Of a stretch of DNA of 57,496 bases, positions 5,975 through 50,974 are shown in pieces. Where the stretch lies: the NCBI GenBank assembly GCA_902768105.1, contig CACXJZ010000011.1, positions 15,776 through 73,271 of the forward strand. Reading direction: 5' to 3'. The position numbers and the translations under genes are program-made. Numbering within the stretch: position 1 is the stretch's first letter; every line of letters starts with the position of its first letter. The notes under the pieces are model-generated. The model was not told the DNA's origin and searched no databases. It saw only the letters and a program-made list of their open reading frames with translations. The DNA comes from an uncultured Prevotellaceae bacterium. GTDB taxonomy: Bacteria > Bacteroidota > Bacteroidia > Bacteroidales > Bacteroidaceae.

Positions 5975-6601
5975 ATGGATGTTGCAATCGTAAAATATAA
6001 CGCGGGGAATGTGTATTCGGTAGTGAATGCATTGAAGCGGCTGGGCGTGGAGCCGAGGCTGACCGACGATGCAGAGCTGCTGATGAAGGCCGACCGCGTG
6101 CTCTTTCCCGGACAGGGAGAGGCTCGCGGAGCCATGGACTACCTGCGCGAACGACGGCTGGACGAGGTGATACGCTCGCTGAAGCAGCCCGTGCTGGGCA
6201 TCTGCATCGGCCAACAGCTCCTGTGCCGCCACTCTGAGGAGGGTGACACCGACTGTATCGGCATCTTCGACGTCGATGTGAAGCGCTTCCAGCCTCAGCG
6301 CCATGAGGACAAGGTGCCGTGCATGGGATGGGGCCCCCTCCAGCTCCCCCAAAAAGGGGAGAGCGTTTGTCCCATCTTCGACGGTCTGCTGTCTCCGCAA
6401 CAGGGACAAGACGAGCTGCCTTACGTCTATTTCGTCCACTCATATTACGTGCCCCTGTGCCCCTGGACGGCGGCCAAAGCGGACTACATCCTGCCCTACT
6501 CTGCAGCCCTGCATAAGGACAACTTCTACACTTGCCAGTTCCACCCTGAAAAGAGCGGAGCGGTTGGTGAACAAATCATCAAGAATTTCTTAGCATTATG
6601 A
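5975..6601 (+). CDS. hisH: Imidazole glycerol phosphate synthase, glutaminase subunit
   Basis: 208 residues, class I glutamine amidotransferase that supplies ammonia to HisF. The catalytic triad is C77 (GICIGQQLL), H190 and E192 (FHPEKS). The loop after GWG (about residues 121-131) is encoded by a G/C-rich palindromic element that also occurs inside other genes here, so this loop differs from the usual GWN loop. The stop overlaps the hisA start by four bases (ATGA), implying translational coupling. Confidence 0.95.
   Translation: MDVAIVKYNAGNVYSVVNALKRLGVEPRLTDDAELLMKADRVLFPGQGEARGAMDYLRERRLDEVIRSLKQPVLGICIGQQLLCRHSEEGDTDCIGIFDVDVKRFQPQRHEDKVPCMGWGPLQLPQKGESVCPIFDGLLSPQQGQDELPYVYFVHSYYVPLCPWTAAKADYILPYSAALHKDNFYTCQFHPEKSGAVGEQIIKNFLAL
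6334..6365. repeat. G/C-rich palindromic element inside hisH
   Basis: CTCCCC and GGGGAG arms around an A-rich loop, flanked by CCCCCTCCAG. It is read in frame as PLQLPQKGES. It is of the same kind as elements in kdsB, mnmE and the DUF5715 gene. Confidence 0.65.
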
Positions 6602-7353
6602 TACAACTCATTCCTGCCATCGACATCATCAACGGACAGTGCGTCCGCCTGACCAAGGGTGACTACGACCAGAAGACGGTCTATTCCGACTCGCCTGCCG
6701 AAGTGGCGAAAGGCTTCGAGCAGTTAGGCTTCAAGCGACTGCACGTGGTCGATCTAGACGGAGCGAAGTCGAAGCATATCGTCAACGATGCCGTATTGCG
6801 CAGCATTACGGAGACGACCAGCCTCACCGTTGACTTCGGCGGGGGCATCAAGACCGACGACGATATTCGCAAGGCCTTCGACGCCGGAGCAAAGATGGTG
6901 ACCGTGGGCAGCATTGCCGTTCAGCAACCGGAGCTCTGCTTCGAGTGGCTGGAGAAGTACGGTCCGGAGCGCATCATCCTGGGTGCCGATGTGCGCCACG
7001 GGAAAATCAGCATCAACGGTTGGAAGGAGGACTCCGACGAGGACCTGCTGCCCTTCCTGAAGAAATACATTGACGCAGGCATCAGGAATGTGCTCTGTAC
7101 GGAGATATCGAAGGACGGCACGCTGGCCGGTCCTGCCATCGCGCTCTACCAGAGCATCATGCAGGAGTATCCGCAGCTGCACCTCATCGCCAGCGGTGGC
7201 GTGAGCAGCATAGCCGACATTGAGGCCCTGGACGCTGCCGGCATTCCCGCCGTGGTGTTCGGAAAGGCCATCTACGAAGGGCGGATAGATTTAAAGGAGT
7301 TAGTGGTTAAAGGTTCTTTGCAAGCAAAGCGGCAAAGCCGAGCGAAAGGTTAA
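6598..7353 (+). CDS. hisA: Phosphoribosylformimino-5-aminoimidazole carboxamide ribotide isomerase
   Basis: 251 residues; a (beta/alpha)8 barrel isomerase for the fourth step of histidine synthesis. Catalytic Asp residues are D9 (IPAIDI) and D131 (GADVRHG), with phosphate-binding GGGI and GGV loops. The family usually ends near residue 240. Here the tail VVKGSLQAKRQSRAKG is encoded by repeat DNA, and the TAA stop lies in a heptamer of the array before hisF. The enzyme core looks intact. Confidence 0.95.
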   Translation: MIQLIPAIDIINGQCVRLTKGDYDQKTVYSDSPAEVAKGFEQLGFKRLHVVDLDGAKSKHIVNDAVLRSITETTSLTVDFGGGIKTDDDIRKAFDAGAKMVTVGSIAVQQPELCFEWLEKYGPERIILGADVRHGKISINGWKEDSDEDLLPFLKKYIDAGIRNVLCTEISKDGTLAGPAIALYQSIMQEYPQLHLIASGGVSSIADIEALDAAGIPAVVFGKAIYEGRIDLKELVVKGSLQAKRQSRAKG

Positions 7354-7367
7354 AGGTTAGAGGTTAG
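7304..7367 (+). repeat. Interrupted heptamer array at the hisA/hisF junction
   Basis: Units GTGGTTA and AAGGTTC are followed by about 30 bp containing two tight hairpins (CTTTGC-AA-GCAAAG and CGGC-AAA-GCCG), then AGGTTAA, AGGTTAG, AGGTTAG. It looks like an insertion into an existing array. The hisA stop is inside the 7347-7353 unit and hisF begins at 7372. Confidence 0.8.
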
Positions 7368-7371
7368 AGAT

Positions 7372-8130
7372 ATGGGATTGGCAAAACGAATCATACCTTG
7401 TCTTGACGTGAAGGACGGAGAGACGGTGAAGGGAACGAACTTCGTGAATCTGCGGAGTGCGGGCGACCCGGTAGCCCTGGGAAAAGCCTACTCGGAGCAG
7501 GGAGCCGACGAGCTCTGCTTCCTGGACATCACCGCATCGTTCGAGGAGCGCAAGACCTTCACGGACATGGTGACACGCGTGGCTGAGACCATCAACATCC
7601 CGTTCACCGTGGGCGGAGGCATCAACGAGCTCTGCGACGTGGAGCGACTGCTCTATGCCGGTGCCGACAAGGTGAGCATCAACAGCGCGGCCATCCGCCG
7701 TCCGGAGCTGATTGAGGAGATTACCACCCGCTTCGGCTCACAGGTTTGCGTGGTGGCCATTGACGCCCGACTCGACGAGGACGGTTGGCACTGCTACCTG
7801 AAGGGCGGTCGTGAGCGCACGGAGCGCGGACTCTTTGAGTGGGCCCGTGAGGCTCAGGAGCGTGGTGCAGGCGAGATACTCTTCACGTCGATGAACCACG
7901 ACGGCACGAAGAACGGCTACGCCAACGAGGCCCTGCGCCAACTGAGCGATGACCTCTCGATCCCCATCATCGCCAGCGGCGGTGCGGGCTGCAGGGAGCA
8001 CTTCCGCGACGTCTTTGTCGAGGGTCATGCCGACGCGGCCCTGGCTGCCTCGGTGTTCCACTTCGGTGAGATTCCCGTGCCGGAGCTGAAGCAGTATCTA
8101 CGAAATGAAGGAATAAATGTAAGAATATGA
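7372..8130 (+). CDS. hisF: Imidazole glycerol phosphate synthase, cyclase subunit
   Basis: 252 residues, standard length. Uses ammonia from HisH to form imidazole glycerol phosphate and AICAR. Catalytic D12 (PCLDVKDG) and D131 (AIDARLD), with GGGIN and ASGGAG phosphate loops. It overlaps hisIE by four bases (ATGA). The three-unit heptamer array lies directly before the start. Confidence 0.97.
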
Positions 8131-8780
8131 AAATTGATTTCGAGAAAATGGGCGGCCTCGTGCCTGCCATCATACAAGACGCAACGACCAGACAAGTGCT
8201 CATGCTGGGCTTCATGAACGAAGAGGCCTACCAGAAGACTGTTGACACGAAGAAAGTGACCTTCTGGAGCCGCAGCCGCAACTGTCTATGGACGAAGGGC
8301 GAGACCAGCGGGAACTTCCTGAACCTGATAGAGATGAAGGTGGACTGCGACAACGACACCCTGCTGGTGAAGGCCATCCCCGACGGTCCCACGTGCCACA
8401 CAGGAACCGATACCTGCTGGGGCGAGGAGAACAAAGCGGAAGACAATCCCCTACTCTTCCTCACGGAGCTGCAGGACTTCATCAACAAGCGCAAGGAGCA
8501 GATGCCCGAAGGCTCGTACACTACGAAGCTCTTCAAGGACGGCATCAACAAGATAGCCCAGAAGGTGGGCGAAGAGGCGCTGGAGACCGTTATCGAGGCC
8601 ACCAACGGCAGCAAGGAGCACTTGGTCTATGAGGCCAGCGACCTGCTCTACCACCTCGTGGTGCTGCTGGCGGAGAAAGGCCTGCGCATTGAGGATGTGG
8701 CCGAGGAGCTGCACCGTCGCCACGACCCTGAGTGGGACAAACAGCGTCGCGAGGCCAAGGCCGCAGGAAAGATGAAATAA
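8127..8780 (+). CDS. hisI: Bifunctional phosphoribosyl-AMP cyclohydrolase / phosphoribosyl-ATP pyrophosphatase
   Basis: 217 residues with two domains: HisI about 1-105 ([19 protein letters not shown] and zinc-binding CHTGTDTCW) and HisE about 115-205 ([21 protein letters not shown]). Performs steps two and three of histidine synthesis. The fused HisIE form is normal for Bacteroidetes. Last histidine gene here; hisG, D, C and B are not in the window. Confidence 0.96.
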
Positions 8781-8809
8781 GGGTTTAGAGGTTAAAGGTT
8801 AGAGGTTAG
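8781..8809 (+). repeat. Heptamer array between hisIE and ftsE
   Basis: GGGTTTAG, AGGTTAA, AGGTTAG, AGGTTAG starting right after the hisIE stop and ending four bases before the ftsE ATG. Confidence 0.9.
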
Positions 8810-8813
8810 AGAT

Positions 8814-9575
8814 ATGTTGATAGATTATAAGAAAGCGAATATCTACCAGAAGGACGGCATCCTCGTGTTGGAGGGTGTTGACTTTCATGTGAACGAAGGC
8901 GAGTTCATCTACATCATCGGACGCGTTGGTGCCGGTAAGAGTACACTGCTCAAGACGCTGTACTTCGAGCTGCCCATTGACGAGGCCGAGACTGCCATCG
9001 TGCTCAATCACGACCTGAAGGAGCTGAAGAGCAAGTATGTGCCCGCCCTGCGCAGGCAGATGGGCATCATCTTCCAGGACTTCCAGCTGCTCAGCGACCG
9101 TACGGTACACGACAACCTGGAGTTTGTGCTGAGGGCTACGGGATGGAAGAAGAAAGACGAACGCGAGACGCGCATCAAGGAGGTGCTTGAGGACGTGGAG
9201 ATGGCCGACTTCGCTGACCGTTTCCCACACGAGCTGTCTGGTGGTGAGCAACAGCGCATTGCCATTGCCCGTGCGGTACTGAACCGTCCGAAGATTATCA
9301 TTGCCGACGAGCCGACAGGCAACCTCGACCCAGAGACTGCCGTCCACATCATTCAGCTGCTCAAGCAGATTGCTCAGACGGGCACGGCCATCGTCATGAC
9401 AACGCACAACATCCCCCTACTCGACCAGTTCCCCGGCATCGTCTATCGCTGCAAGGACAAGAAGCTGGAGGACATCACGAACAACTACAACCAGCTGGCT
9501 GCCGACATTGACGCCAACGAGCCTGACGAGCCCATCAGCATGAAGTACGCTGCGAGAGCAGACCTGTCGGTGTAA
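8814..9575 (+). CDS. ftsE: Cell-division ABC transporter ATPase FtsE
   Basis: 253 residues. Walker [10 protein letters not shown] (36-44), signature LSGGEQQR (141-148), Walker B IIIADEP (161-167) and switch His in TTHN. The FtsE-type phrases [11 protein letters not shown] and ADEPTGNLD make it the cytoplasmic ATPase that pairs with FtsX and controls cell-wall hydrolases at the septum. ftsX is not adjacent. A C-terminal extension of about 25 residues after the ATPase fold is present. A related ABC ATPase role cannot be fully excluded. Confidence 0.88.
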
Positions 9576-9603
9576 AGGTTAAAGTGTAAAGGTTAAAGGT
9601 TAG
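9576..9603 (+). repeat. Heptamer array between ftsE and lysC
   Basis: AGGTTAA, AGTGTAA, AGGTTAA, AGGTTAG begin immediately after the ftsE TAA. A further 27 bp separate the array from the lysC ATG. Confidence 0.9.
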
Positions 9604-9630
9604 AGAATTAAGAAACAAAACAACATAGCT

Positions 9631-10950
9631 ATGAAAGTAATGAAATTCGGCGGAACCTCAGTAGGCACTCCGCAACGCATGAAAGAAGTTACGAACCTCG
9701 TAACAAAGTCTGGAGAACCCGTCTTTGTGGTACTCTCGGCCATGTCAGGAACCACCAACTCGCTGGTGGAGATTTCCGATTACCTCTACAAGAAGAATGC
9801 CGACGGCGCCAACGAAGTCATCAACAAACTGGAGCAGAAATACCTGCGACACATTGAAGAGCTTTATACTGCCGACGAATGGAAGCAGACCACGCGCGAG
9901 TTCCTGCAGGGAGAGTTCAACTACCTGCGCTCGTTCACCAAGGAACTGTTTACCAGCTTCGAGGAGAAGAGCATCGTGGCACAGGGAGAGATGCTGTCAA
10001 CCAACATGGTGGTGAACTACATGAAGGAGCAGGGCATCAACGCATGTCTGCTGAATGCGCTCGACTTCATGCGTACTGACAAGAACTCCGAGCCAGACCC
10101 CGTCTATATCAAGGAGAAGCTGAACGCACTCCTCGAACAGAACGAGGGTGCACAGGTCTATATCACACAGGGATTCATCTGCCGTAATGCCTACGGCGAG
10201 GTGGACAACCTGCAGCGCGGTGGCTCTGACTACACGGCCTCGCTCATCGGAGCAGCCATCAATGCCGAGGAGATTCAGATTTGGACCGACATCGACGGCA
10301 TGCACAACAACGACCCGCGCGTGGTTGACAAGACACAGCCCGTACACCAGCTGCACTTCGAGGAGGCTGCCGAGCTGGCTTACTTCGGAGCAAAGATTCT
10401 GCACCCCACCTGCGTGCAGCCCGCCAAGTATGCAGGCATCCCCGTCCGACTGCTCAACACGATGGACCCCGACGCAGAGGGAACCACCATCAGCAATGCC
10501 ACGGAGTACGGCAAGATCAAGGCCGTAGCTGCCAAGGACAACATCATCGCCGTCAAGGTGAAGTCGTCACGCATGCTGCTGGCTACGGGATTCCTGCGCA
10601 AGGTCTTCGAAATCTTCGAGAGCTACCAGACTCCCATCGACATGGTGTGCACATCAGAGGTCGGCGTCAGCATGTCTATTGACAACTCTGCCCACCTCGG
10701 CGAGATTGTCGATGAGCTGAAGAAGTACGGCACGGTGACCGTCGATACAGGAATGTGTGTGGTTTGCGTCGTGGGCGACCTCGACTGGTCGAACATCGGC
10801 TTCGAGACCCGCGTGCTGGATGCCATGAAAGACATCCCCGTTCGCATGGTGTCGTATGGCGGCTCTAACTACAACATCTCCTTCCTCATCCGCGAGGAGG
10901 ACAAGAAGCGCGCCCTGCAGAGCCTGAGCGACACGCTTTTTAATAAATAA
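9631..10950 (+). CDS. lysC: Aspartate kinase (monofunctional)
   Basis: 439 residues. Phosphorylates aspartate, the first step towards lysine, threonine and methionine. The kinase domain (about 1-280) starts MKVMKFGGTSVG and holds the RGGSDYTA substrate loop. Two ACT domains (about 300-435) probably give feedback control by an end product. No homoserine dehydrogenase domain is attached. It is followed by lysA, which suggests supply of lysine and diaminopimelate. The gap to lysA holds a hairpin. Confidence 0.93.
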   Translation: MKVMKFGGTSVGTPQRMKEVTNLVTKSGEPVFVVLSAMSGTTNSLVEISDYLYKKNADGANEVINKLEQKYLRHIEELYTADEWKQTTREFLQGEFNYLRSFTKELFTSFEEKSIVAQGEMLSTNMVVNYMKEQGINACLLNALDFMRTDKNSEPDPVYIKEKLNALLEQNEGAQVYITQGFICRNAYGEVDNLQRGGSDYTASLIGAAINAEEIQIWTDIDGMHNNDPRVVDKTQPVHQLHFEEAAELAYFGAKILHPTCVQPAKYAGIPVRLLNTMDPDAEGTTISNATEYGKIKAVAAKDNIIAVKVKSSRMLLATGFLRKVFEIFESYQTPIDMVCTSEVGVSMSIDNSAHLGEIVDELKKYGTVTVDTGMCVVCVVGDLDWSNIGFETRVLDAMKDIPVRMVSYGGSNYNISFLIREEDKKRALQSLSDTLFNK

Positions 10951-10956
10951 AACAAT

Positions 10957-10997
10957 AAGGAACTCACAAGCGGTTGTAAAACCGCGATAACTTCCTT
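10957..10997 (+). promoter_or_regulatory. Hairpin in the lysC-lysA gap
   Basis: An inner stem GCGGTT-GTAA-AACCGC is enclosed by AAGGAA and TTCCTT. It ends 19 bases before the lysA ATG. It could be a processing or attenuation site; there is no U-tract, so it is not a classical terminator. Confidence 0.45.
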
Positions 10998-11016
10998 TTA
11001 ACTTCAAGACAAGACA

Positions 11017-12180
11017 ATGGCTAAAGGAGTTTTTCCTATTGATAAGCTGGAACGGATAGAGACGCCGTTCTACTACTACGACACGGAGCTGTTGCGCGAG
11101 ACGCTGCGCACCATCAACGAGGAGGCTGGGCGTCACGAGGGCTTCGTGGTACACTATGCGATAAAAGCCAATGCCAACCCCAAGCTGCTGAAGATTATCC
11201 GCGAGGCAGGACTGGGAGCCGACTGCGTGAGCGGAGGCGAGATACAGGCTTGTATCGATGCCGGTTTCCCCTCCAAGAAGATTGTCTTTGCCGGCGTGGG
11301 CAAGAGCGACTGGGAGATTAACCTCGGACTCGACGACGACATCTTCTGCTTCAACGTGGAGAGCATCCCTGAGCTGGAGGTCATCAACGAACTGGCAGCC
11401 AAGAAGGGCAAGACGGCTCGGGTGGCCTTCCGACTGAACCCGAACGTGGGAGCTCACACGCACGCCAACATCACGACAGGACTGGCAGAAAACAAGTTCG
11501 GCATCGCCATGCGCGACATGATTCCCGTCATTGAGCATGCACAGCAGTTGCAGAACGTCAAGGTGGTGGGACTGCACTTCCACATCGGCAGCCAGATTCT
11601 CGACATGAGCGACTTCGAAGCGCTCTGCAACCGCGTCAACGACCTGCAGCTGGAGCTGGAGCGCCATCGCATCACCGTGGAGCACATCAACGTGGGCGGT
11701 GGACTGGGCGTGGAATACACTCACCCCAACCGTGTTTCCGTACCCGACTTCAGGGCTTACTTCGACACCTACGCCAAGAAGCTGAAACTGCGCCCGGGAC
11801 AAACGCTGCACTTCGAGCTGGGACGTGCCGTCGTGGCACAATGCGGCAGCCTCATTACGCGCACCTTATACGTAAAGGAAGGAGCCGTCAAGCGCTTCGC
11901 CATCGTCGATGCCGGATTCACCGACCTCATTCGTCCAGCGCTCTACCAGGCTTACCATAAGATTGAGAACATCAGCAGCAACGAGCCCATGGAGACCTAC
12001 GACGTGGTGGGCCCCATCTGCGAGAGCACCGACGTGTTTGCCAAGCAGATTGACCTGAACCGCACGCAACGTGGTGACTTGCTGGCCATTCGCTCTGCAG
12101 GTGCCTATGGTGAGATCATGGCCTCGCAGTACAACTGCCGCCGACTGCCACAGGGCTACACCAGCGACGAAATAAGATAA
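11017..12180 (+). CDS. lysA: Diaminopimelate decarboxylase
   Basis: 387 residues, PLP-dependent group IV decarboxylase converting meso-diaminopimelate to lysine. PLP lysine K50 (YAIKANANP), PLP-phosphate loop INVGGGLG, and the catalytic Cys motif GPICESTD in the C-terminal beta domain. Somewhat short but complete. A glycosyltransferase gene starts three bases after its stop. Confidence 0.95.
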   Translation: MAKGVFPIDKLERIETPFYYYDTELLRETLRTINEEAGRHEGFVVHYAIKANANPKLLKIIREAGLGADCVSGGEIQACIDAGFPSKKIVFAGVGKSDWEINLGLDDDIFCFNVESIPELEVINELAAKKGKTARVAFRLNPNVGAHTHANITTGLAENKFGIAMRDMIPVIEHAQQLQNVKVVGLHFHIGSQILDMSDFEALCNRVNDLQLELERHRITVEHINVGGGLGVEYTHPNRVSVPDFRAYFDTYAKKLKLRPGQTLHFELGRAVVAQCGSLITRTLYVKEGAVKRFAIVDAGFTDLIRPALYQAYHKIENISSNEPMETYDVVGPICESTDVFAKQIDLNRTQRGDLLAIRSAGAYGEIMASQYNCRRLPQGYTSDEIR

Positions 12181-12183
12181 GGA

Positions 12184-12837
12184 ATGACAACGGACAACAG
12201 ACTTTCAATCGTCATAGCAGTACACGACCAGGCAAACGAGATTGAGCAGAACCTGGAACGCTTCCTCACGCAACCGTGCGAGGAGGGCTGCGAGGTTGAG
12301 GTTATTGTGGTTGACGACTCGTCCACAGACAACACGCCCGACGTGCTGACGCAGATGAAAAATCGCTACCCACAGCTCTACACCACGTTCCTGCCGAAGT
12401 CGGTCGTCTTCAACCCCAGCCGGCTGCAGCTGGCGTTGTCCGTAGGCGTGAAAGCCGCGAAAAGCCAGTGGGTGGTGCTGGCCGATATCAGCCGCCCTCC
12501 CCTCACGGAAGACTGGCTCAAAGGTCTGCAGCAACAGGCCGCCAGAGGTGGCGAGGTGATGATGTCCTATAGCGACAAGAAACACAACAGCGTGTACTAC
12601 CAAACGTGGCAGACACTCGATGATGCTGCTCCCCTGATACGCAAGGCCGAGCGCCGTCCGGGCAACGGTCATCAGGGCAAATGGAAGAAATTCCGTCGCG
12701 GGCTCTACGATGCCGTAGCCGTCAGAAAAGACTGTGTCCACGATGCCGTCAGACTCTTCGACAAGGATTTTAGCAGCTACGCTCTGTGGAAGCTGCGCTG
12801 GCAGGTCTGGTGGCGTAACACGGATAACTGCGCATAA
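12184..12837 (+). CDS. Family 2 glycosyltransferase-like protein
   Basis: 217 residues. The N-terminal GT-A fold is clear: LSIVIAVHDQANEIEQNL, then VEVIVVDDSSTDNTPDVL, where the DD pair is the nucleotide-sugar binding site. The usual DxD region appears as VVLADISRPP, a divergent form, so catalytic competence is uncertain. No membrane segment. It starts three bases after lysA and is 14 bp before a second glycosyltransferase-like gene. Substrate unknown. Confidence 0.75.
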   Translation: MTTDNRLSIVIAVHDQANEIEQNLERFLTQPCEEGCEVEVIVVDDSSTDNTPDVLTQMKNRYPQLYTTFLPKSVVFNPSRLQLALSVGVKAAKSQWVVLADISRPPLTEDWLKGLQQQAARGGEVMMSYSDKKHNSVYYQTWQTLDDAAPLIRKAERRPGNGHQGKWKKFRRGLYDAVAVRKDCVHDAVRLFDKDFSSYALWKLRWQVWWRNTDNCA

Positions 12838-28671: not shown

Positions 28672-28706
28672 CTGTAAACTGTAAACCGTAAACTGTAAAT
28701 CGTAAA
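28672..28706 (-). repeat. Heptamer array (CTGTAAA x5) between the kinase and GH5 genes
   Basis: Plus-strand units CTGTAAA, CTGTAAA, CCGTAAA, CTGTAAA, TCGTAAA. It starts three bases after the kinase stop and ends three bases before the GH5 ATG. Confidence 0.92.
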
Positions 28707-28709
28707 CCA

Positions 28710-30064: not shown

Positions 30065-30140
30065 TTTTCATGGCATGAAACCATACGATTCATGGCATGA
30101 AACTATGCGTTTCATTACGGGAAAAGTCGGGGCGGCTGTG
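30065..30140. repeat. TTCATGGCATGAA repeat element, copy B
   Basis: Two TTCATGGCATGAA palindromes, a third degenerate unit TTCATTACGGGAAA and a GGGGCGGCTG end; about 90 percent identical to 1675-1750. It lies about 18 bp upstream of the -33 box of the kinase promoter. Beyond it TTGCAAGA is repeated twice (30154-30169). Confidence 0.8.
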
Positions 30141-34007: not shown

Positions 34008-34796
34008 ATGAAGTTTGTTGCGATTATTCCTGCGCGCTACGCATCAACGCGCTTTCCCGGCAAACCGCTGGCACTACTCGGCGGCAAGCCTGTCATTCAG
34101 CGAGTATATGAACAAGCCAAGAGCGTGCTGGCTGACGTCTTCGTGGCTACCGACGACGACCGCATCTTCCAGACCGTCTGCGACTTCGACGGACAAGCCA
34201 TCATGACGCGCGCCGACCACAAGAGTGGTACCGACCGCATAGAGGAGGCGATGGAAAAAATCGAGGTACGAGGTACGGAGTACGAGGTGCGAGGAGAAGA
34301 CCTTGTGGTCATCAACATCCAGGGTGACGAGCCGTTTGTACAGGCCTCGCAGATTGAGACGCTCTGCCAGCTCTTCGACGCCCCTGAAACGCAGATTGGC
34401 ACCTTAGGAAAGCCCTTCGAGACGATGGAGGCGGTCATGAACCCCAACTCGCCGAAGATTGTGTGCGACCGCAAGGGATTCGCACTCTACTTCAGCCGGA
34501 GCGTCATCCCCTTTGTGCGAAACCAATCCCCCCTCTCTTCGGAGGGGGACAGGGGGAGGCTTCCTTTCCCCTACCTCAAGCATTTGGGACTCTACGCCTA
34601 CCGTCGTGAGGTGCTCAGGGAGATAACACAACTGCCCCAGTCTCCCCTGGAACTGGCGGAGAGCCTGGAGCAGTTGCGCTGGCTGGAAAACGGCTACCGC
34701 ATCAGGGTAGGCACGACCAACGTGGAAACAGTAGGCATAGACACGCCCGACGACCTTCAGCGTGCTGAGGAATTCCTGCAGCAGCTGTCACGATAA
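34008..34796 (+). CDS. kdsB: 3-deoxy-manno-octulosonate cytidylyltransferase with two repeat-derived insertions
   Basis: 262 residues, about 12-15 longer than usual. Activates Kdo with CTP for lipopolysaccharide. [21 protein letters not shown] (CTP loop), [19 protein letters not shown] and GIDTPDDL are all intact. Two insertions explain the extra length: [11 protein letters not shown] (86-96), encoded by a CGAGGTA heptamer array, and [15 protein letters not shown] (173-187), encoded by a G/C palindrome. Both fall between conserved blocks and keep the frame. Its end overlaps the convergent DnaJ-like gene by nine bases. Confidence 0.94.
34262..34296 (+). repeat. Heptamer array (CGAGGTA x5) inside kdsB
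   Basis: CGAGGTA, CGAGGTA, CGGAGTA, CGAGGTG, CGAGGAG, in the reading frame of kdsB without stops. The only heptamer array of this window that lies wholly inside a gene. Confidence 0.85.
34525..34563. repeat. G/C-rich palindromic element inside kdsB
   Basis: C-rich arm, TTCG loop (CTCTTCGGAG), G-rich arm, then a second G-rich block. Translated as [11 protein letters not shown], in the same frame as the related element in mnmE (SPPSEGRGE). Confidence 0.75.
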
Positions 34797-40960: not shown

Positions 40961-41734
40961 TTAGCGAACTGTCAGGTGAAAACACCCTTGTTTGACTTCG
41001 TGCTTGATGTAGCAGCGACCATCGCGGCGCATGTCGCGGAGAACCTCGGAGAGTACCCACTTCAAGGTGTCGTTACGAACCTCACGCGTGATGGGCTGAT
41101 AGCGGTTGTAGCAAATGTCAACGGTTGTGCCATACAGGTGACAGGAGTTCTCCGTGGCATTACCATTACCACGACGCAGACGCGCCACGTCTTCCTCAGT
41201 ACGCAGGACGCTGGTCACGATGATGCGATGCAGGGGCACACCCTTGGCATAAAGGCTGTCCTGGAAGGCACGACCGATGTCCTGAAGCAGAACACTGGCA
41301 CGAGGCACCAGATACGGGATAGAGGCCCGCAACGGATCTACATGATAAAAGGGATTGGCACCTACATACACCAGTTCCTTCATGCGCTGCTCAGCATCCT
41401 GACGGTTCTTGACCGGTGTCACGCCCCATTGGTGAGCGGCTGTCAGCTGGGTATCGTTGCTGTCAGGAAACTCTGCGTGGTAGCTGGTGACACCATTGAT
41501 GCGGTGGGGGCGCCCCCCTCTCATCCCCCCCATTGGGGGGAAGTCATGCATCCCCTCGCCCTCATTCGATTGGAGAGGGAGCTCCAAGGTGTCTGAAGCC
41601 TCCCCTAATGGGGGGAGGTTGGAGGGGGCTTCCGCCGTCCAGCTCTTCTCTCCTTCAAAGGTCAGACGGACCAAAGCCAACAGCGCCACAACGATGACGA
41701 ATATCAATAAATATCTCTTTTTATCTATCTTCAT
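40961..41734 (-). CDS. DUF5715-like membrane-anchored protein with repeat-derived linker
   Basis: 257 residues from ATG 41734. Transmembrane helix about 8-23; residues about 35-77 (APSNLPPLGEA..., QSNEGEG, FPPMGGMRGGRP) are encoded by three consecutive G/C-rich palindromic elements; conserved domain about 85-257 with IVTSVLRTEEDVARLRR and ENSCHLYGTTVDICYNRY. This resembles the peptidase-like M15/VanY-type fold of DUF5715, which suggests a role at peptidoglycan, but I cannot confirm catalytic residues. Confidence 0.75.
   Translation of the reverse strand: MKIDKKRYLLIFVIVVALLALVRLTFEGEKSWTAEAPSNLPPLGEASDTLELPLQSNEGEGMHDFPPMGGMRGGRPHRINGVTSYHAEFPDSNDTQLTAAHQWGVTPVKNRQDAEQRMKELVYVGANPFYHVDPLRASIPYLVPRASVLLQDIGRAFQDSLYAKGVPLHRIIVTSVLRTEEDVARLRRGNGNATENSCHLYGTTVDICYNRYQPITREVRNDTLKWVLSEVLRDMRRDGRCYIKHEVKQGCFHLTVR
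41507..41632. repeat. Three G/C-rich palindromic elements in tandem inside the DUF5715 gene
   Basis: 41595-41632 begins GAAGCC and ends GGCTTC with internal CCTCCCC/GGGGGGAGG arms. About 41550-41583 has CTCGCCCTC/GGAGAGGGAG arms. About 41507-41541 has CCCCCC-ATT-GGGGGG. All are open in the gene's reading frame. Confidence 0.8.
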
Positions 41735-41757
41735 AAAAAATATTTCGTTTCGGGGCA

Positions 41758-41786
41758 CAAAGATACAAATAATATTTGTAACTTTG
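41758..41786. promoter_or_regulatory. Divergent promoter region for the DUF5715 gene and phoH
   Basis: Minus-strand TATCTTTG (41765-41758) and plus-strand TAACTTTG (41779-41786) lie 13 bp apart, so the two polymerase sites overlap. The -33 boxes are not obvious. Confidence 0.65.
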
Positions 41787-44463: not shown

Positions 44464-44490
44464 ATTTTAAATCGTCAAATTGTAAATTAA
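44462..44490 (+). repeat. Degenerate heptamer array between menG and aroE
   Basis: AAATTTT, AAATCGTC, AAATTGT, AAATTAA; the first unit shares two bases with the menG stop and the array ends four bases before the aroE ATG. One unit has eight bases. Confidence 0.65.
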
Positions 44491-44494
44491 TTAG

Positions 44495-45241
44495 ATGGAC
44501 AAGTACGGACTTATCGGCTACCCTTTGGGACACTCGTTCTCCATCAGCTACTTCAACCAGAAGTTCAAGGACGAGGACATCGACGCCGTGTATGAAAACT
44601 TCGAGATTCCCAGCATCGACCTGCTGCCGGAAGTGTTGGACTCCAACCCGGAGCTCAGGGGACTCAACGTCACCATACCCTACAAGCAGAAGGTGATGGA
44701 GTTCCTCGACAACATCAGCCCAGAGGCACGTGCCATTGGGGCGGTCAACGTCATCAAGGTCATCCATGAGGGTAAGAAAATCAGGCTCAAGGGTTACAAC
44801 TCCGACGTCATCGGTTTCACGCAGAGCATAGAGCCCATGCTGGAGAAGCGCTACCACAAGAAAGCGCTCATCCTCGGCACAGGAGGCGCGTCGAAGGCCA
44901 TCGACTACGGATTGAAGTCGCTAGGTCTGGAAACGGTCTTCGTCAGCCGCTATGAGCGTCCTGAGACCATCCAGTACGACAAGATTACGCCCGAGGTGGT
45001 CAAGGAGTACAACGTCATCGTCAACTGCACCCCCGTCGGCATGTACCCGCATACTGAGGAGTGTCCGCTGCTGCCTTACGAGGCAATGGACAATCACACC
45101 ATTCTCTACGACCTTATTTACAATCCCGACGAGACCATGTTCATGAAGCGTGGCGCCCAGTATGGTGCCAACGTCAAGAACGGACTGGAGATGCTCCTGC
45201 TGCAGGCTTTTGCCTCCTGGGAGTTCTGGCATGAAAAGTAA
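44495..45241 (+). CDS. aroE: Shikimate dehydrogenase
   Basis: 248 residues. Reduces 3-dehydroshikimate with NADPH in aromatic amino-acid synthesis. GLIGYPLGHSFS and GLNVTIPYKQKV hold the substrate site with the catalytic Lys, KGYNSDVIGF the Asp, and ALILGTGGASKAIDYGL the NADPH loop. Slightly short but complete. Confidence 0.95.
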   Translation: MDKYGLIGYPLGHSFSISYFNQKFKDEDIDAVYENFEIPSIDLLPEVLDSNPELRGLNVTIPYKQKVMEFLDNISPEARAIGAVNVIKVIHEGKKIRLKGYNSDVIGFTQSIEPMLEKRYHKKALILGTGGASKAIDYGLKSLGLETVFVSRYERPETIQYDKITPEVVKEYNVIVNCTPVGMYPHTEECPLLPYEAMDNHTILYDLIYNPDETMFMKRGAQYGANVKNGLEMLLLQAFASWEFWHEK

Positions 45242-45269
45242 AGGTTAGAGGTTAAAGGTTAGAGGTTAA
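45242..45269 (+). repeat. Heptamer array between aroE and purM
   Basis: AGGTTAG, AGGTTAA, AGGTTAG, AGGTTAA directly after the aroE stop, nine bases before the purM ATG. Confidence 0.92.
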
Positions 45270-45278
45270 AGAATAATT

Positions 45279-46448
45279 ATGAACGACAACAGATATATGC
45301 AGCGCGGTGTGAGTGCCGCCAAGGAAGATGTGCACAACGCCATCAAGAACATCGACAAGGGAATCTTCCCGCAGGCTTTCTGCAAGATTATCCCTGACAT
45401 ATTGGGCGGCGACCCTGAGTATTGTAACATCATGCATGCTGACGGAGCAGGCACCAAGTCAAGCCTCGCCTACATGTACTGGAAGGAGACGGGCGACCTC
45501 TCCGTGTGGAAAGGCATTGCGCAGGATGCCATCGTCATGAATACCGACGACCTGCTCTGCGTGGGTGCCGTCGATAACATCCTCGTCAGCTCCACCATCG
45601 GACGCAACAAGATGCTCATTCCCGGCGAGGTCATCTCTGCCGTCATCAATGGTACGGATGAGCTGCTTCAGGAGCTTCGCGAGATGGGCATCGGCATCTG
45701 GCCGACAGGCGGTGAGACAGCCGATGTGGGCGACCTCGTGCGTACCATCATCGTTGACAGTACCGTCACCTGCCGCATGAAGCGTTCCGACGTCATCGAC
45801 AATGCCAACATCCGACCAGGCGACGTCATCGTGGGGCTTTCCTCTACAGGACAGGCCACCTACGAGCATCGCTACAACGGTGGCATGGGGTCCAACGGAC
45901 TGACCTCTGCCCGTCACGACGTCTTCAGCAAGTATCTGGCAGAGCGCTATCCTGAGAGCTACGACCACGCCGTGCCCGACGAGCTGGTGTATAGCGGCAA
46001 ATATGCCTTTACTGACGTGGTCGATGGTTTACCCATCGACATGGGTCAGCTGGTCCTCTCTCCCACCCGCACCTATGCGCCCGTCATCAAGCGTCTGCTC
46101 GACGAGCTGCGTCCTGAGATTCATGGTATGGTACATTGCACGGGCGGTGCGCAGGCCAAGGTGCTGCATTTCGTCAACGACAACTGCAAGGTGGTGAAGG
46201 ACAATATGTTCCCCGTTCCGCCGCTGTTCCAGGCCATTCACGACTGTTCCGGCACCGATTGGCGCGAGATGTACCAGGTGTTCAACATGGGTCATCGCAT
46301 GGAGATCTACGTACGTCCGGAAGTGGCAGTACAGGTTATTGCCGTCGCAAAGAGCTTCAACATCGATGCACAGGTAGTCGGACGCATTGAGGAAGGCAAG
46401 AAGAGCCTGACCATCAAGAGCGAGTACGGCACTTTCCATTACGAATAA
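45279..46448 (+). CDS. purM: Phosphoribosylformylglycinamidine cyclo-ligase (AIR synthetase)
   Basis: 389 residues. ATP-dependent ring closure of FGAM to AIR in purine synthesis. HADGAGTKSSLAYMYW, MNTDDLLCVGA, GGETADVGDLVRT and GLSSTGQATYEHRYNGGMGSNGLT are family blocks of the Bacteroidetes form, which is longer than the E. coli enzyme. Follows purC by three genes, consistent with a purine/aromatic operon. Confidence 0.9.
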   Translation: MNDNRYMQRGVSAAKEDVHNAIKNIDKGIFPQAFCKIIPDILGGDPEYCNIMHADGAGTKSSLAYMYWKETGDLSVWKGIAQDAIVMNTDDLLCVGAVDNILVSSTIGRNKMLIPGEVISAVINGTDELLQELREMGIGIWPTGGETADVGDLVRTIIVDSTVTCRMKRSDVIDNANIRPGDVIVGLSSTGQATYEHRYNGGMGSNGLTSARHDVFSKYLAERYPESYDHAVPDELVYSGKYAFTDVVDGLPIDMGQLVLSPTRTYAPVIKRLLDELRPEIHGMVHCTGGAQAKVLHFVNDNCKVVKDNMFPVPPLFQAIHDCSGTDWREMYQVFNMGHRMEIYVRPEVAVQVIAVAKSFNIDAQVVGRIEEGKKSLTIKSEYGTFHYE

Positions 46449-46461
46449 ACGTGCAATCATT

Positions 46462-46830
46462 ATGAATGGACTTTATACAATCATCCTGCTCATACTGAGC
46501 AACGTCTTCATGACGCTTGCCTGGTATGGGCATCTTCGTTTGCAGCAGTCGGGGGTGTCCAACAACTGGCCGCTACTCGGCGTCATCGCCTTCTCGTGGG
46601 GCATCGCTTTCCTTGAATACTGCTGTCAGGTACCTGCCAACAGACTGGGCTTTGTCGAGAACGGAGGTCCCTTTAACCTCATCCAGCTCAAGGTCATTCA
46701 GGAGTGCATCTCACTGGCAGTCTTCTGCATCATCGCCAACATCATGTTCCAGGGCACACACCTGCACTGGAACCACATCCTGGCATTCCTGCTGATTATC
46801 TGTGCCGTCTATCTGGTTTTCATGAAGTAG
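46462..46830 (+). CDS. DMT-family small membrane protein (DUF486)
   Basis: 122 residues, four predicted helices. NVFMTLAWYGHL and FSWGIAFLEYCCQVPANRLG are DUF486 signatures, a family related to small multidrug-resistance type transporters. Substrate unknown. ttcA starts one base after its stop. Confidence 0.88.
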   Translation: MNGLYTIILLILSNVFMTLAWYGHLRLQQSGVSNNWPLLGVIAFSWGIAFLEYCCQVPANRLGFVENGGPFNLIQLKVIQECISLAVFCIIANIMFQGTHLHWNHILAFLLIICAVYLVFMK

Positions 46831-46831
46831 C

Positions 46832-47563
46832 ATGACCATCAGCGAGCGCATACAGCGACGCTTCGGGCGCGCCATAGGACAATACCGTCTGATTGACGAC
46901 GGCGACCACATCCTTGTGGGGCTCTCTGGCGGAAAAGACTCGTTATGCCTCCTGGAGTTGCTGGCACGTCGTTCACGCATACAGCGTCCGCAGTTCACCG
47001 TCGAAGCCCTCCACGTGCGCATGGAGAACGTCAGCTACGAGACGGACACCAGCTACCTGCAGCATTTCTGCGACGAGCTGGGCGTGCCGCTCCACATTAT
47101 CACCACCAGTTTTGATTCCCAACTGTCAGCCAACAACCCTCAGTTCAAGCAGAAGCCGCCCTGCTTCCTCTGCTCCTGGCAGCGCCGCAAGCAGCTGTTC
47201 AACCTTGCCCAGCAGTTGGGCTGCAACAAGATTGCCTTAGGACACCATCAGGACGACATCATCAAGACGGCACTCATGAACCTCACGTTCCAGGGACAGT
47301 TCTCCACGATGCCTGCCCTGCTCCGCATGAGGAAGATGCCGCTCACCATCATACGTCCGCTCTGTCTGGTGGAAGAGGCCGACATCCGCACCTATGCCGA
47401 GCAGCAAGGCTACCAGAAGCAAGTCAAGCAATGCCCCTACGAACACGCCACCAATCGTACGGACATCGAGGATTTGTTCGACCGTATGCAACAGTTGAAT
47501 CCTGAGGCACGCTACTCCGTCTGGAACGCTCTGGAGGCAGCCGGAAAGCTCACAGAGTATTAA
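46832..47563 (+). CDS. ttcA: tRNA 2-thiocytidine synthetase TtcA-like
   Basis: 243 residues. PP-loop LVGLSGGKDSLCLLELL; CxxC pair PPCFLCSWQRRK; third Cys in VKQCPYEHATNR; GHHQDDIIKTALMNL. These three Cys would hold the Fe-S cluster of TtcA, which thiolates C32 of some tRNAs. Shorter than the E. coli enzyme. Another TtcA/TtuA-like target is possible. Confidence 0.88.
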   Translation: MTISERIQRRFGRAIGQYRLIDDGDHILVGLSGGKDSLCLLELLARRSRIQRPQFTVEALHVRMENVSYETDTSYLQHFCDELGVPLHIITTSFDSQLSANNPQFKQKPPCFLCSWQRRKQLFNLAQQLGCNKIALGHHQDDIIKTALMNLTFQGQFSTMPALLRMRKMPLTIIRPLCLVEEADIRTYAEQQGYQKQVKQCPYEHATNRTDIEDLFDRMQQLNPEARYSVWNALEAAGKLTEY

Positions 47564-47575
47564 ATATCTTTAATT

Positions 47576-47603
47576 CTCCACCCTTCAGCCTCCACCCTCC
47601 GCA
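47576..47603 (+). repeat. Heptamer array (CTCCACC-type x4) after ttcA
   Basis: CTCCACC, CTTCAGC, CTCCACC, CTCCGCA in register, 12 bases after the ttcA stop and just before the next promoter. Confidence 0.75.
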
Positions 47604-47612
47604 TTTTTTTCG

Positions 47613-47620
47613 TATCTTTG
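47613..47620 (+). promoter_or_regulatory. -7 box (TATCTTTG) of the PD40 gene
   Basis: TATCTTTG 12 bp before ATG 47633. It contains a TTG that would otherwise be a possible start, so the start is the ATG. Confidence 0.7.
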
Positions 47621-47632
47621 CTTTCTAAACCT

Positions 47633-48760
47633 ATGAACAAGATGAATCATTGTCATCGTTACATCGTCTTATGCTGCTGCCTCTGCATGGCACTCACGCT
47701 CTCGGCTCAGGGCAAGAAGAAGCGCCCCGCCAAGAAACCCGTCGTTGTGGAAGCGCCCGTTGACCCGCGTCTGGAACGCATGACGCAGAACACCCAGCGC
47801 ATCGTCTTCATCGACAGTATGGTGGTACCACGCAACGAGATACTGGGCAGGCTTCAGCTGACACCTCGGACAGGCCTCCTCAGGCAGGACGGTGAGACCT
47901 TCAGCTATCAGAACGAGATAGGCACACGCAGGATTACCGTCAAGGACAACCGGCTCTACGCCAGTGACCTCGTGGCAGGCACCTTTGCCGAAGAACAGGA
48001 GCTGAAGGGAGTCTTCAATGCCGGCGTCATCGACACGCTCAACTGTCCCTTCCTCATGAACGACGGGCAGACGCTCTACTTTGCCGCCAAGGGCAGCGAG
48101 AGCATCGGTGGCTACGACATTTTCGTCACACGCTACAACTCCAAGACACAGAGTTTCCTGAAGCCCGAGAACATCGGCATGCCCTTCAACTCTACGGACG
48201 ACGACCTGCTCTACATCATCGACGAGGAGCGCAACATCGGCTTCTTTGCCACCACACGCAGACAGCCCGAGGGCTATGCCTGCATCTATATTTTCATTCC
48301 GTCAGAGGTACGCAAGACCTATGACGAGATGGCACCCGCCGAACTGAAACGCATGGCCGAGCTCCAGAGCATTGCCGACACCTGGGGCGACGGCAGCGAG
48401 CGCAAGCAGGCGCTCCAGCGTCTCAACACCCAGCAGTCGGCCGTTCCCATGCAGGCTCCGACAGAGACGACATCCTTCGTCATCAACGACCGTACGACAT
48501 ACACCAGCGCAGCCGACTTCCGCTCGCCCAATGGTGCCAGGATGTATCAGGAGCTGCTTAGCCTGCAGTCGCAGCTGGAAGCCCTTGAGCGCAGCCTCCA
48601 CGTGTCGCGCACGGTCTATGCCCATGCCTCTGCCGACAAGCGGAGCCAGCTGCGTGAGGAGATGCTGTGCGACGAGTCCCAGCTCGACCAGCTGCGCCTT
48701 GACATCCACCAGTTAGAGAAAGACTTACGCAATACGGAAAATCAATTTATTAACAACTAA
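47633..48760 (+). CDS. Secreted PD40 (WD40-like) beta-propeller protein
   Basis: 375 residues from ATG 47633 (47642 also possible). Signal peptide ends LTLSAQG; basic patch KKKRPAKK. The stretch FLMNDGQTLYFAAKGSESIGGYDIFVTRYN is the PD40 blade seen in Bacteroidetes envelope proteins with OmpA domains, but no OmpA domain is here. The last 70 residues form a coiled coil (LLSLQSQLEALERSL...LEKDLRNTE). Envelope function unknown. Confidence 0.8.
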   Translation: MNKMNHCHRYIVLCCCLCMALTLSAQGKKKRPAKKPVVVEAPVDPRLERMTQNTQRIVFIDSMVVPRNEILGRLQLTPRTGLLRQDGETFSYQNEIGTRRITVKDNRLYASDLVAGTFAEEQELKGVFNAGVIDTLNCPFLMNDGQTLYFAAKGSESIGGYDIFVTRYNSKTQSFLKPENIGMPFNSTDDDLLYIIDEERNIGFFATTRRQPEGYACIYIFIPSEVRKTYDEMAPAELKRMAELQSIADTWGDGSERKQALQRLNTQQSAVPMQAPTETTSFVINDRTTYTSAADFRSPNGARMYQELLSLQSQLEALERSLHVSRTVYAHASADKRSQLREEMLCDESQLDQLRLDIHQLEKDLRNTENQFINN

Positions 48761-48772
48761 AAATAATAGCCT

Positions 48773-49645
48773 ATGAAAAAGTTATTTCCTGAGTCCGAGT
48801 TGATCATCAACAACGACGGTTCATGTTTCCACCTTCACCTGAAGCCCGAATTCCTGGCTGATAAAGTTGTGCTCGTCGGCGACCCCGCCAGAGTCAATAC
48901 CGTAGCAGCCCACTTCGACAGCATCGAGCACGAAGTCAGCAGCCGCGAGTTCCACACCATCACAGGTACCTATAAAGGCAAGCGTATCACCTGCCAGAGC
49001 CACGGAATCGGCTGCGACAACATCGACATCGTGGCCAACGAGCTCGACACGCTGGCAAACATCGACTACAACACCCGTGAGGAGAAGCCTGAACACCGCA
49101 CACTCACCATGGTGCGCATCGGCACCTGCGGCGGTCTGCAGCCATTCACCCCTACAGGCTGCTTCATCGCTTCCGTCAAGAGCATCGGCTTCGACGGCCT
49201 GCTCAACTACTATGCCGGACGTAATCAGGTGTGCGACCTCAAGATGGAGGAGGCATTCAAGGAGCACATGCAATGGGACCCCATCAAGGGCGCGCCCTAT
49301 GTTGCCGTTGCTGACCAGGACCTCATCAATCAGATTGCCGGCGACGATATGGTAAAGGGTTATACCGTTGCCTGTGGAGGCTTCTACGGTCCTCAGGGAC
49401 GCGAGCTCCGCGCTGCCGTTGCCGACCCCAAGCAGAACGAGAAGATTGAGTCGTTCGAGTATGACGGCCTGAAGATTTGTAACTTCGAGATGGAGTCCTC
49501 CGCCCTTGCCGGCCTGGCTTCACTTCTCGGCCATCGCGCCATGACCTGCTGCATGGTCATCGCCAACCGCTATGCCCAGAAGATGAACACCGAGTACAAG
49601 AACTCTATCGACTCCCTGATCACCAAAGTTCTCGACCGCATCTAA
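48773..49645 (+). CDS. Nucleoside phosphorylase (uridine phosphorylase-like)
   Basis: 290 residues. VVLVGDPARVNTVAAHFD, GIGCDNIDIVANEL, VRIGTCGGLQ and NFEMESSALAGLASLLGHRA are NP-I family blocks; the FEMES Glu contacts ribose. It splits nucleosides with phosphate for salvage. Base specificity is not certain from sequence. Its stop abuts the mnmE ATG with no gap. Confidence 0.88.
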   Translation: MKKLFPESELIINNDGSCFHLHLKPEFLADKVVLVGDPARVNTVAAHFDSIEHEVSSREFHTITGTYKGKRITCQSHGIGCDNIDIVANELDTLANIDYNTREEKPEHRTLTMVRIGTCGGLQPFTPTGCFIASVKSIGFDGLLNYYAGRNQVCDLKMEEAFKEHMQWDPIKGAPYVAVADQDLINQIAGDDMVKGYTVACGGFYGPQGRELRAAVADPKQNEKIESFEYDGLKICNFEMESSALAGLASLLGHRAMTCCMVIANRYAQKMNTEYKNSIDSLITKVLDRI

Positions 49646-50974
49646 ATGAACGATACCATCTGTGCATTAGCAACTGCCCCTGGTGGTGCTCTCGGCATCA
49701 TCAGGGTCAGTGGTTCTAAGGCCATTGCCGCCGTCTCAGCCATCAGCCGCGTACGTTGCGACGCCGTTGCGCCCAACACCACGCACTTTACCCGCATCCT
49801 GACATCCCCTCCTTCGGAGGGACGGGGGGAGGTCATCGACGAGGCGATGGTCACCGTCTTCCGCGCCCCTCATTCCTATACGGGCGAGGATTCGGTGGAA
49901 ATCTCCTGTCACGGTTCGCGCTATATATTAAATAAGGTATTGGAACTCCTGCTGCAGCACGACTGCCGCATGGCACAGCCAGGCGAGTTTACCCAGCGTG
50001 CCTTCCTCAACGGCAAGATGGACCTCTCGCAGGCAGAGGCCGTTGCCGACCTCATCGCATCCACCAACAAGGCCACCCACCAGATAGCCATGAGCCAGCT
50101 GCGCGGACACTTCTCCTCCGAGCTGCACGACCTGCGCAGTCAGCTCCTGAAGCTCACCTCGCTGCTTGAGCTCGAGCTCGACTTCTCCGACCACGAAGAT
50201 CTGGAGTTTGCCGACCGTACGGAACTGCTCCATCTCGCACAGACCATCGATGCACGTTTAAGCCATTTGGCTCAGACCTTCGAAACGGGCAACGCCCTCA
50301 AGCAAGGCATTCCCGTAGCCATCATTGGTGCGCCCAACGTGGGCAAGAGCACCCTGCTCAATGCGCTGTTAGGCGAAGAGCGAGCCATCGTCAGCGACAT
50401 CCAGGGAACCACGCGCGACGCCATTGAGGACACCATCCAGCTCGACGGCATCACCTTCCGCTTCATCGACACAGCAGGCATCCGCCATACAGACGACCAG
50501 ATAGAGAACCTCGGCATCGAGCGCTCCATCGGCGCAGCCCAGCGTGCCCGCATCATCCTGTTGATGACAGAGCCAGGCGTCCCCTACCCTGACATTCCCG
50601 TCAGCGACAGCCAGACCGTCATCCGCATAGAGAATAAGACCGAAGCCTTCCAGGCCAAGTTCGGCATCGGCTTAGACCATCTGCGCCAACAACTCATTGA
50701 TGCAGCCCCCAAAACCTCCGAGAGCGACGTCATCGTCACCAATGCCCGTCACTACGATGCTCTCCTGCATGCCCGCGAAGCCATCCTCCGCGTCATTGAC
50801 GGGCTCCAGATGCAGCTCAGCGGCGACCTCCTTTCCGAAGACCTCCGCCAAGCCATAGATATCCTTGCAGAAATCACAGGTGGGCAAATCACCACACAGG
50901 AAACGCTCAACAACATCTTCCAGCATTTCTGCGTGGGAAAGTTTTCAGAGTATAAACGGATTTTGAGGCGGTAA
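49646..50974 (+). CDS. mnmE: tRNA modification GTPase MnmE with altered C-terminus
   Basis: 442 residues. Acts with MnmG on U34 of certain tRNAs. N-terminal folate-like domain, helical domain and inserted G domain with G1 GAPNVGKST (228-236), G3 DTAG (275-278) and G4 NKTE (330-333; usually NKxD). The essential C-terminal motif is CVGK (429-432), normally the last residues of the family. Here FSEYKRILRR follows, read from the antisense of the neighbouring broken gene. Residues 54-62 (SPPSEGRGE) are encoded by a G/C palindrome. Confidence 0.93.
   Translation: MNDTICALATAPGGALGIIRVSGSKAIAAVSAISRVRCDAVAPNTTHFTRILTSPPSEGRGEVIDEAMVTVFRAPHSYTGEDSVEISCHGSRYILNKVLELLLQHDCRMAQPGEFTQRAFLNGKMDLSQAEAVADLIASTNKATHQIAMSQLRGHFSSELHDLRSQLLKLTSLLELELDFSDHEDLEFADRTELLHLAQTIDARLSHLAQTFETGNALKQGIPVAIIGAPNVGKSTLLNALLGEERAIVSDIQGTTRDAIEDTIQLDGITFRFIDTAGIRHTDDQIENLGIERSIGAAQRARIILLMTEPGVPYPDIPVSDSQTVIRIENKTEAFQAKFGIGLDHLRQQLIDAAPKTSESDVIVTNARHYDALLHAREAILRVIDGLQMQLSGDLLSEDLRQAIDILAEITGGQITTQETLNNIFQHFCVGKFSEYKRILRR
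49803..49834. repeat. G/C-rich palindromic element inside mnmE
   Basis: CCCTCC-TTC-GGAGGG followed by ACGGGGGGAGG; read in frame as SPPSEGRGE. Confidence 0.72.

Follow-up and report, generated by a model that had tools for sequence, protein, structure and literature searches.

Five copies of a palindromic element of about 36 bp, with one C-rich and one G-rich arm, lie in a 57,496-nucleotide stretch of DNA from an uncultured Prevotellaceae bacterium (assembly GCA_902768105.1, contig CACXJZ010000011.1, positions 15,776 to 73,271; hereafter the window). All of them are located within four protein-coding genes, namely hisH, kdsB, a gene of the DUF5715 family and mnmE. A sequence-only reading of the window had noticed C- and G-rich hairpins in these same genes and likened them to Rickettsia palindromic elements (RPEs), which add peptide segments to existing proteins. 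A rule-based finder, written with the five window copies already in view, reports exactly these five, and none in the reversed window or in any of ten Markov controls. The strict pattern CCCCTCN{0,12}CCCCN{3,8}GGGG has three matches in the window versus a mean of 0.01 over 100 shuffles. The same five copies are reported by model R1 at E <= 0.0032; R1 was built from 30 copies of this genome including all five, so its window matches, whose bit scores are given below, are no independent test.

The copy in hisH (GATase, Pfam PF00117; 5975..6601, plus strand), a gene with a matching open reading frame (ORF) at all 30 loci compared, own locus included, occupies 6332..6364 on the plus strand and is read in sense orientation and in frame as GPLQLPQKGES (34.0 bits). 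The one in kdsB (CMP-KDO synthetase, PF02348; 34008..34796, plus strand; relatives in the PDB with a best E of 2.6e-55) lies at 34528..34560 on the minus strand, antisense to its gene (32.8 bits). Likewise antisense is the copy at 49802..49834 (minus strand, 25.0 bits) within the TrmE_N domain of mnmE (PF10396 and PF12631; 49646..50974, plus strand), which is read as TSPPSEGRGEV. The DUF5715-family gene (40961..41758, minus strand) had been credited with a single element like the other three hosts; it holds two, an antisense copy at 41512..41544 (plus strand, 34.7 bits) and a sense copy at 41598..41630 (minus strand, 39.8 bits), which together form an inverted doublet. Between them a diverged hairpin, CCCCTCGCCCTC...GGAGAGGGAG, can be seen by eye at about 41551..41586 (plus strand); it is reported by neither R1 nor the finder. 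These copies do not separate conserved blocks, as had been supposed, and sit in a variable N-terminal linker outside the domain (PF18979, residues 99-265), where 29 aligned orthologues vary. The sequence-only reading was correct in that the proteins are kept open, that of hisH included, and in that the kdsB and mnmE copies share one reading frame with respect to the hairpin (TCG GAG); the TTCG loop that it described as frequent is present in two of the five copies.

The element is not confined to the window. The genome is a draft of 2.70 Mb in 90 contigs, 86.5% complete, and its best kdsB relatives (75-76% identity) are labelled Prevotella or Prevotellaceae. Across it the strict pattern gives 43 matches, some of them overlapping, versus 2 for the reversed pattern, and the simpler CCTCCN{3,12}GGAGG gives 116 versus 27. 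R1 finds at least 142 matches at E<=10, a lower bound because 150 of 496 first-look candidates were scored and 346 never were. We studied 106 copies, the five of the window and 101 from elsewhere in the genome, leaving out 36 weaker or overlapping R1 matches; another listing of 106 matches differs from this set by weak extras in loci L244 and L233 and by lack of the two weakest studied copies.

Alignment of the 106 copies reveals a directional unit which consists, from 5' to 3', of a C-rich tail of CCCCTCC or CCTCCCCC type, a spacer of 2-4 nt and a hairpin whose left arm is rich in C and whose right arm is rich in G, its stem 6-8 bp long and its loop about 3-6 nt. Information content is high over some 37 positions and falls to background level on either side, so that the edges are sharp and the flanks beyond them unconserved. 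Bases of the stem pair in 89.0% of alignment cells, and in 64 cells both stem sides are changed, versus a shuffled mean of 24.9 (none of 500 shuffles reaches 64) and at most 19 when the partner is slid by 1-3 columns; as the alignment was fitted to R1, these counts lean towards structure. The 5' side carries the C-rich tail in the column profile, and no GTAG or GTGG foot is present there. A search of the window against Rfam gave no match above the gathering score. The 106 copies fall into 89 clusters. Single copies make up 72 of these, and 13 of the 17 multi-copy clusters are inverted (+-) doublets spanning 44-165 bp, mostly 73-130 bp; the remaining four are of the -- type. Two of the doublets (L201 and L241) have spacer sequence in common, as judged by eye.

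Coding frames around the copies were judged on 63 stretches by a codon model; when given 758 pieces of 120 nt cut from the ORFs on which it had been trained, it assigned the correct frame to 735. Forty-six of the 89 clusters lie in frame inside genes. Four more are flanked by coding sequence in one frame and contain a stop (L192; L193 2501-2530; L217 2501-2630; L240 3471-3501); these were excluded from the in-gene count, as were the two clusters with differing flanks (one with different frames on the same strand, one with opposite strands) and 37 with coding sequence on one side (28) or on neither (9). Where both sides code on the same strand, the frame is thus kept in 50 of 51 clusters. Such frame keeping would be expected from selection against broken genes, whatever the mechanism of insertion. 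At random places in the same loci, both flanks are coding in the same frame in 1743 of 3000 cases; the observed in-gene share of 46/89 does not differ from this (p 0.24), hence the element shows no preference for genes in this genome and no clear avoidance of them, and we reject the idea of a gene-targeting system.

The frame shared by the kdsB and mnmE copies is not a general rule, because genome-wide all six frames are in use (antisense 19, 8 and 8, sense 15, 9 and 3, among the 62 copies of the in-frame and same-frame-with-stop clusters). On average 5.27 of six frames are free of stops in in-gene copies and 4.9 in the others. With about five out of six frames stop-free and a length near 36 nt, the unit is suited to survival inside genes. 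A subfamily with TGTTTA-type loop is found mostly outside of them (4 of 23 copies in frame versus 52 of the remaining 83, Fisher p 1.3e-4). Neither the RNase P nor the tmRNA locus of this genome, both of which were located, has an R1 match.

The 46 in-frame clusters are distributed over 44 proteins, RsgA and a dihydrolipoamide dehydrogenase-like protein containing two each. All 44 were scanned against Pfam and 42 of them match at E<=1e-6, the exceptions being those of loci L215 and L230. By comparison of coordinates by eye, 27 of the 46 clusters are enclosed by one Pfam match, and the others occur in linkers, near domain ends or outside domains, as in the DUF5715 protein. Among the hosts are proteins which we take, by short names that go beyond the Pfam matches, to be TsaD, ClpB, LytB/IspH, CCA transferase, riboflavin synthase, UvrA, ArgS, a RimO-like protein, GcpE/IspG, the delta' subunit, Mfd, IspD, MnmA, RsgA, ValS, CydB, DapF, a LytTR regulator, RNase R and TrmO. 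Related peptides appear in unrelated hosts: the DapF insert is 63% identical over 35 residues (E 4.6e-7) to one in the CCA-transferase gene of the same genome, both being inverted doublets of 81 bp, and a similar peptide is found in an acyltransferase.

Comparison with orthologues shows extra length at most sites, and it does not show the same residues encoded by unrelated codons, the outcome by which ordinary protein loops were to be recognized. Between two fixed motifs of kdsB this genome encodes 33 residues, compared to 28 at 38 of 39 loci and 29 at one (a gain of five or four residues), and the old turn residues are replaced. The mnmE and hisH loops vary in length among 29 other loci each, some orthologues being longer than ours. 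Following VPCMGW, the hisH loop is occupied by this element here, by other C-tailed hairpins in genomes G055 and G051 (R1 E 0.065 and 0.026), and by 7-bp tandem repeats in G033, G088 and G081; in the mnmE loop of G081 an array of the heptamer CTCAAAC takes the same place. Among the orthologues L111-L140, another region of mnmE (residues ~309-335, between the G domain and the C-terminal region) is in many cases longer than in this genome and those closely related to it, where it is short.

In ValS, the stretch VVA..DTWFS carries LPSLGEAGRGFY before LRQDEDALDTWFS and exceeds all 29 compared loci, by 8 residues in 15 of them and by 10 in 14; a few neighboring residues differ as well, so the gain does not equal one unit cleanly inserted. 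ValS has another insert, APSNLPQKGE, common to this genome and G044, with a variant in G019. The sharing includes the flank (L234; L264 of G044), and G044 is not the nearest genome by ValS identity; transfer, or loss elsewhere, is possible. The sequence of the 27-residue DapF insert was found only in this genome; at the same place G034, G020 and G033 have different long inserts and most others a short turn. DapF has a further insert here, about 12 residues long, which G034 carries in another form.

Outside the window we considered 45 host positions (42 in frame, three in the same frame with a stop), 18 of which have a relative spanning both sides, 16 of them one relative each. The median net gain amounts to at least 6 residues at 16 of these 18 positions. 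It equals exactly 12 residues, i.e. one 36-nt unit, at four of them: ArgS (a doublet site), IspD, the first RsgA site and TrmO, each measured against a single relative. When aligned with solved structures, ValS and DapF show breaks at their inserts, and gaps occur there in kdsB, mnmE (two PDB relatives), hisH and MnmA. An AlphaFold2 model of kdsB, built with 44 orthologues, has a mean pLDDT (predicted local confidence) of 89.8, and three blocks score lowest. Two of these, residues 171-180 (mean 55) and 181-190 (mean 70), correspond to the palindrome insert. The third, residues 91-100, with a mean of 69, is near another insert in the first variable loop of the gene, a 7-bp tandem repeat CGAGGTA (34262..34294, no strand assigned, found by TRF) that belongs to a separate repeat class. 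This outcome favors the sequence-only reading, which had proposed a test of the structural position of such peptides; most simply, the kdsB peptide would form a flexible loop. The inserted peptides in general are rich in P, S, G, E and R; they are probably flexible, and probably neutral or close to it.

Similar hairpins occur in other genomes of the genus. CCTCCN{3,12}GGAGG exceeds its reversed control at least threefold in 24 of 54 genus genomes, among them this one; matches per genome range from 5 to 321. Three rich genomes were sampled by pooled R1 and finder matches, with thresholds of our choice (flank 150 nt, score above 5), and each carries its own variants of the element. The clusters lying in genes number 0 of 14 in G016 (400 kb), 5 of 15 in G044 (320 kb) and 0 of 7 in G019 (80 kb), and of 1500 random places 718, 822 and 714, respectively, have coding flanks in the same frame. 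The habit of sitting in genes is lineage-specific. Some G016 copies form arrays between genes; C-tailed hairpins are spaced there by about 44 bp (L323 14759-15144, L327 11602-11990). Among 80 named kdsB loci, we found one weak R1 match (E 0.086) and, in a different locus, one finder match, and no good named example.

We suggest that these copies represent a small non-autonomous family of mobile DNA hairpins, REP-like in build (REP, repetitive extragenic palindromic sequence), which has spread in this Prevotella-like lineage, and we assign to this interpretation a probability of about 0.8. It draws on the copy number, the sharp edges, the stem covariation, the in-gene copies with their frame kept and the extra length relative to most orthologues. 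According to this proposal, copies would land largely irrespective of genes. Within a gene, those would survive whose net length is divisible by three, whose frame stays open and whose loop is tolerant, sometimes after a few old residues have been lost. The element is probably moved by a hairpin-recognising enzyme acting in trans.

Several observations weigh against this proposal. The mobilising enzyme was not found. No Y1_Tnp gene is detected at E<=0.001 in this genome, although the incomplete draft may lack one; over 54 genomes the number of Y1 genes does not correlate with the hairpin excess (rho -0.008); and few elements occur beside Y1 genes in 40 loci of relatives. No target duplication at a fixed offset is apparent among the 106 copies (the best offset has 4/106 versus 0.6 expected), nor is there a sign of gene preference. 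Residues were replaced besides being added in hisH, kdsB, DapF and ValS, net gains spread from 6 to 25 residues, two of the 18 compared positions show no gain (TPR protein +1, acyltransferase -2), and the ClpB relative is only 37% identical and perhaps a paralogue. Translation of the peptides, finally, is deduced from open frames.

What could move the element, if anything does, may be approached from several sides. One possibility, which we hold tentatively, is a classical REP/REPIN family moved by RAYT (REP-associated tyrosine transposase, TnpA_REP, of the Y1 type) whose gene has been lost, is missing from the draft or has diverged too far. The foot-plus-hairpin build, inverted doublets, high copy number and lineage-specific variants would all fit, and a search of 90 genomes found Y1_Tnp genes in 59. 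PMC6006769 describes TnpA_REP subclass 2.6 as mostly from Bacteroidetes, with atypical hairpins that lack GT[AG]G on its flanks. Further, in G044, a genome with in-gene copies, R1 matches are situated about 750 bp (E 0.0034) and 140 bp (E 0.086) from a Y1 gene. Besides the absence of Y1_Tnp from this genome and the lack of correlation, however, Y1_Tnp is missing from six of the 15 genomes in which the hairpin excess is greatest. The 40 Y1 loci (142 kb) yield two finder matches, versus 47 in 800 kb of the three sampled genomes; R1 matches are absent from 20 loci and number three in the remaining 20, one good (that of G044) and two weak, and several Y1 genes are adjoined by other repeated hairpins. 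Slightly less credit still should be given to the view that no transposition took place and that template switching or recombination between C/G-rich hairpins refills variable loops. The replaced residues in the four proteins named above speak for it, as do the heptamer repeats in the same loops of other species, the ValS insert shared with G044 together with its flank, and the missing target duplications, but sharp edges with unconserved flanks over 106 copies, and exact 12-residue gains at ArgS, IspD, RsgA and TrmO, speak against such refilling.

We consider it unlikely that the inverted doublet is the real element, a MITE (miniature inverted-repeat transposable element) with termini AGCCCCCTCC...GGAGGGGGCT served by a DDE transposase, single copies being its remnants. 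This would account for the prevalence of +- doublets among multi-copy clusters and for the spacer common to L201 and L241; nevertheless, 72 of 89 clusters are single copies, and no target duplication, such as a MITE would be expected to leave, is seen at a fixed offset. Finally, ordinary Pro/Gly/Glu-rich protein loops whose DNA is C- and G-rich by chance can practically be dismissed. Although the inserts do sit in length-variable loops, this explanation is refuted by the empty controls, intergenic copies, covariation of stems, use of six frames on both strands and shorter relatives at most sites.

The mobile hairpin family proposed here works like RPEs and intragenic REPs, and it looks like a different repeat family. 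The likeness to RPEs noted by the sequence-only reading is supported: in both cases a palindromic repeat resides in frame in many conserved proteins and in intergenic regions as well. The likeness has its limits, since RPEs are 105-146 bp long and the present unit, found in another phylum, is G+C-rich and about 36 bp, and since clean one-unit insertion was not seen in hisH, kdsB, DapF and ValS. In Rickettsia, RPEs are also found in tmRNA and RNase P RNA genes, as stated in PMC2229807, whereas both loci are free of R1 matches here.

In PMC3733652, GTAG and CGTC REPs of 20-40 bp and their dimers are described inside ORFs of several bacteria, with UvrA, tRNA synthetases and pseudouridine synthases among the kinds of host. 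Unlike our element, with its C-rich tail, they possess GTAG or CGTC feet, and they are mostly intergenic (PMC3733652), whereas about half of the clusters studied here lie in genes. Of the features of RAYT-associated REPs, a short palindrome of 20-40 bp, many dispersed copies and inverted pairs are all seen here, but two hallmarks, the GTAG foot and a clear link to a Y1 transposase, are not. Extragenic location does not apply to this genome either, though the samples of G016 and G019 have no cluster in genes and that of G044 has 5 of 15. TnpA_REP subclass 2.4, abundant in Cyanobacteria and Bacteroidetes, is reported to have REPs within its own tnpA_REP genes with the frame unbroken (PMC6006769); here, by contrast with subclasses 2.4 and 2.6, the elements lie in housekeeping genes of a general kind, and a clear association with a Y1 gene was not found.

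The kind of system is therefore already known; the family, its host group and the scale of invasion in one genome appear to be new. Among top-ranked open-licence literature we found no report of a C-tailed REP family in Prevotella, which may exist elsewhere. A bolder proposal, one we would advance as speculation, is that the hairpins constitute a new mobile class, in which a C-rich tail replaces the REP foot, the mover is not of the Y1 type, genes of some Prevotella-like lineages are invaded freely and the inserts act as mobile peptide modules. The recurrence of related peptides in DapF, CCA transferase and acyltransferase would then reflect such modules, and fixed permissive loops, like that of hisH, would be refilled independently in different species by such hairpins or by 7-bp tandem repeats. 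Bacteroidetes lack Shine-Dalgarno sequences (PMC6847099), and the absence of these signals from their mRNAs may have helped coding inserts rich in GGAGG to be tolerated.

Some other repeats deserve mention. Further 7-bp tandem repeats, with units such as TAAAGGT, TTAGAGG and CTGTAAA, occur in the window at 5940-5972, 8785-8811, 9570-9602, 28672-28707 and 45239-45271, mostly at gene borders; the CGAGGTA array in kdsB is in frame. Another palindrome, TTTCATGGCATGAAA ... TTTCATGCCATGAAA, with a 22-bp unit, is present at 1675-1728 and 30067-30115. In G044 the two R1 matches mentioned above map to positions 1070-1102 and 1677-1709 of locus L387, upstream of the Y1 gene at about 1848-2186, and that gene is flanked by hairpins of its own, CCCAGGGC...GCCCTGGG.

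The best-known example of in-frame invasion of conserved proteins comes from Rickettsia, an obligate intracellular bacterium, and the phenomenon is listed for some other REP-rich bacteria. Here, a single Prevotella-like genome has 44 invaded proteins, while two sampled relatives have none of their repeats in genes and one has a third of them there. This contrast between lineages makes several matters testable, namely a mover without a Y1 gene, the neutrality of in-gene copies, and the acceptance of new peptides by loops of essential enzymes. The elements mark loops of conserved enzymes that tolerate insertion, and they are a source of species-specific insertions able to mislead alignments and annotation.

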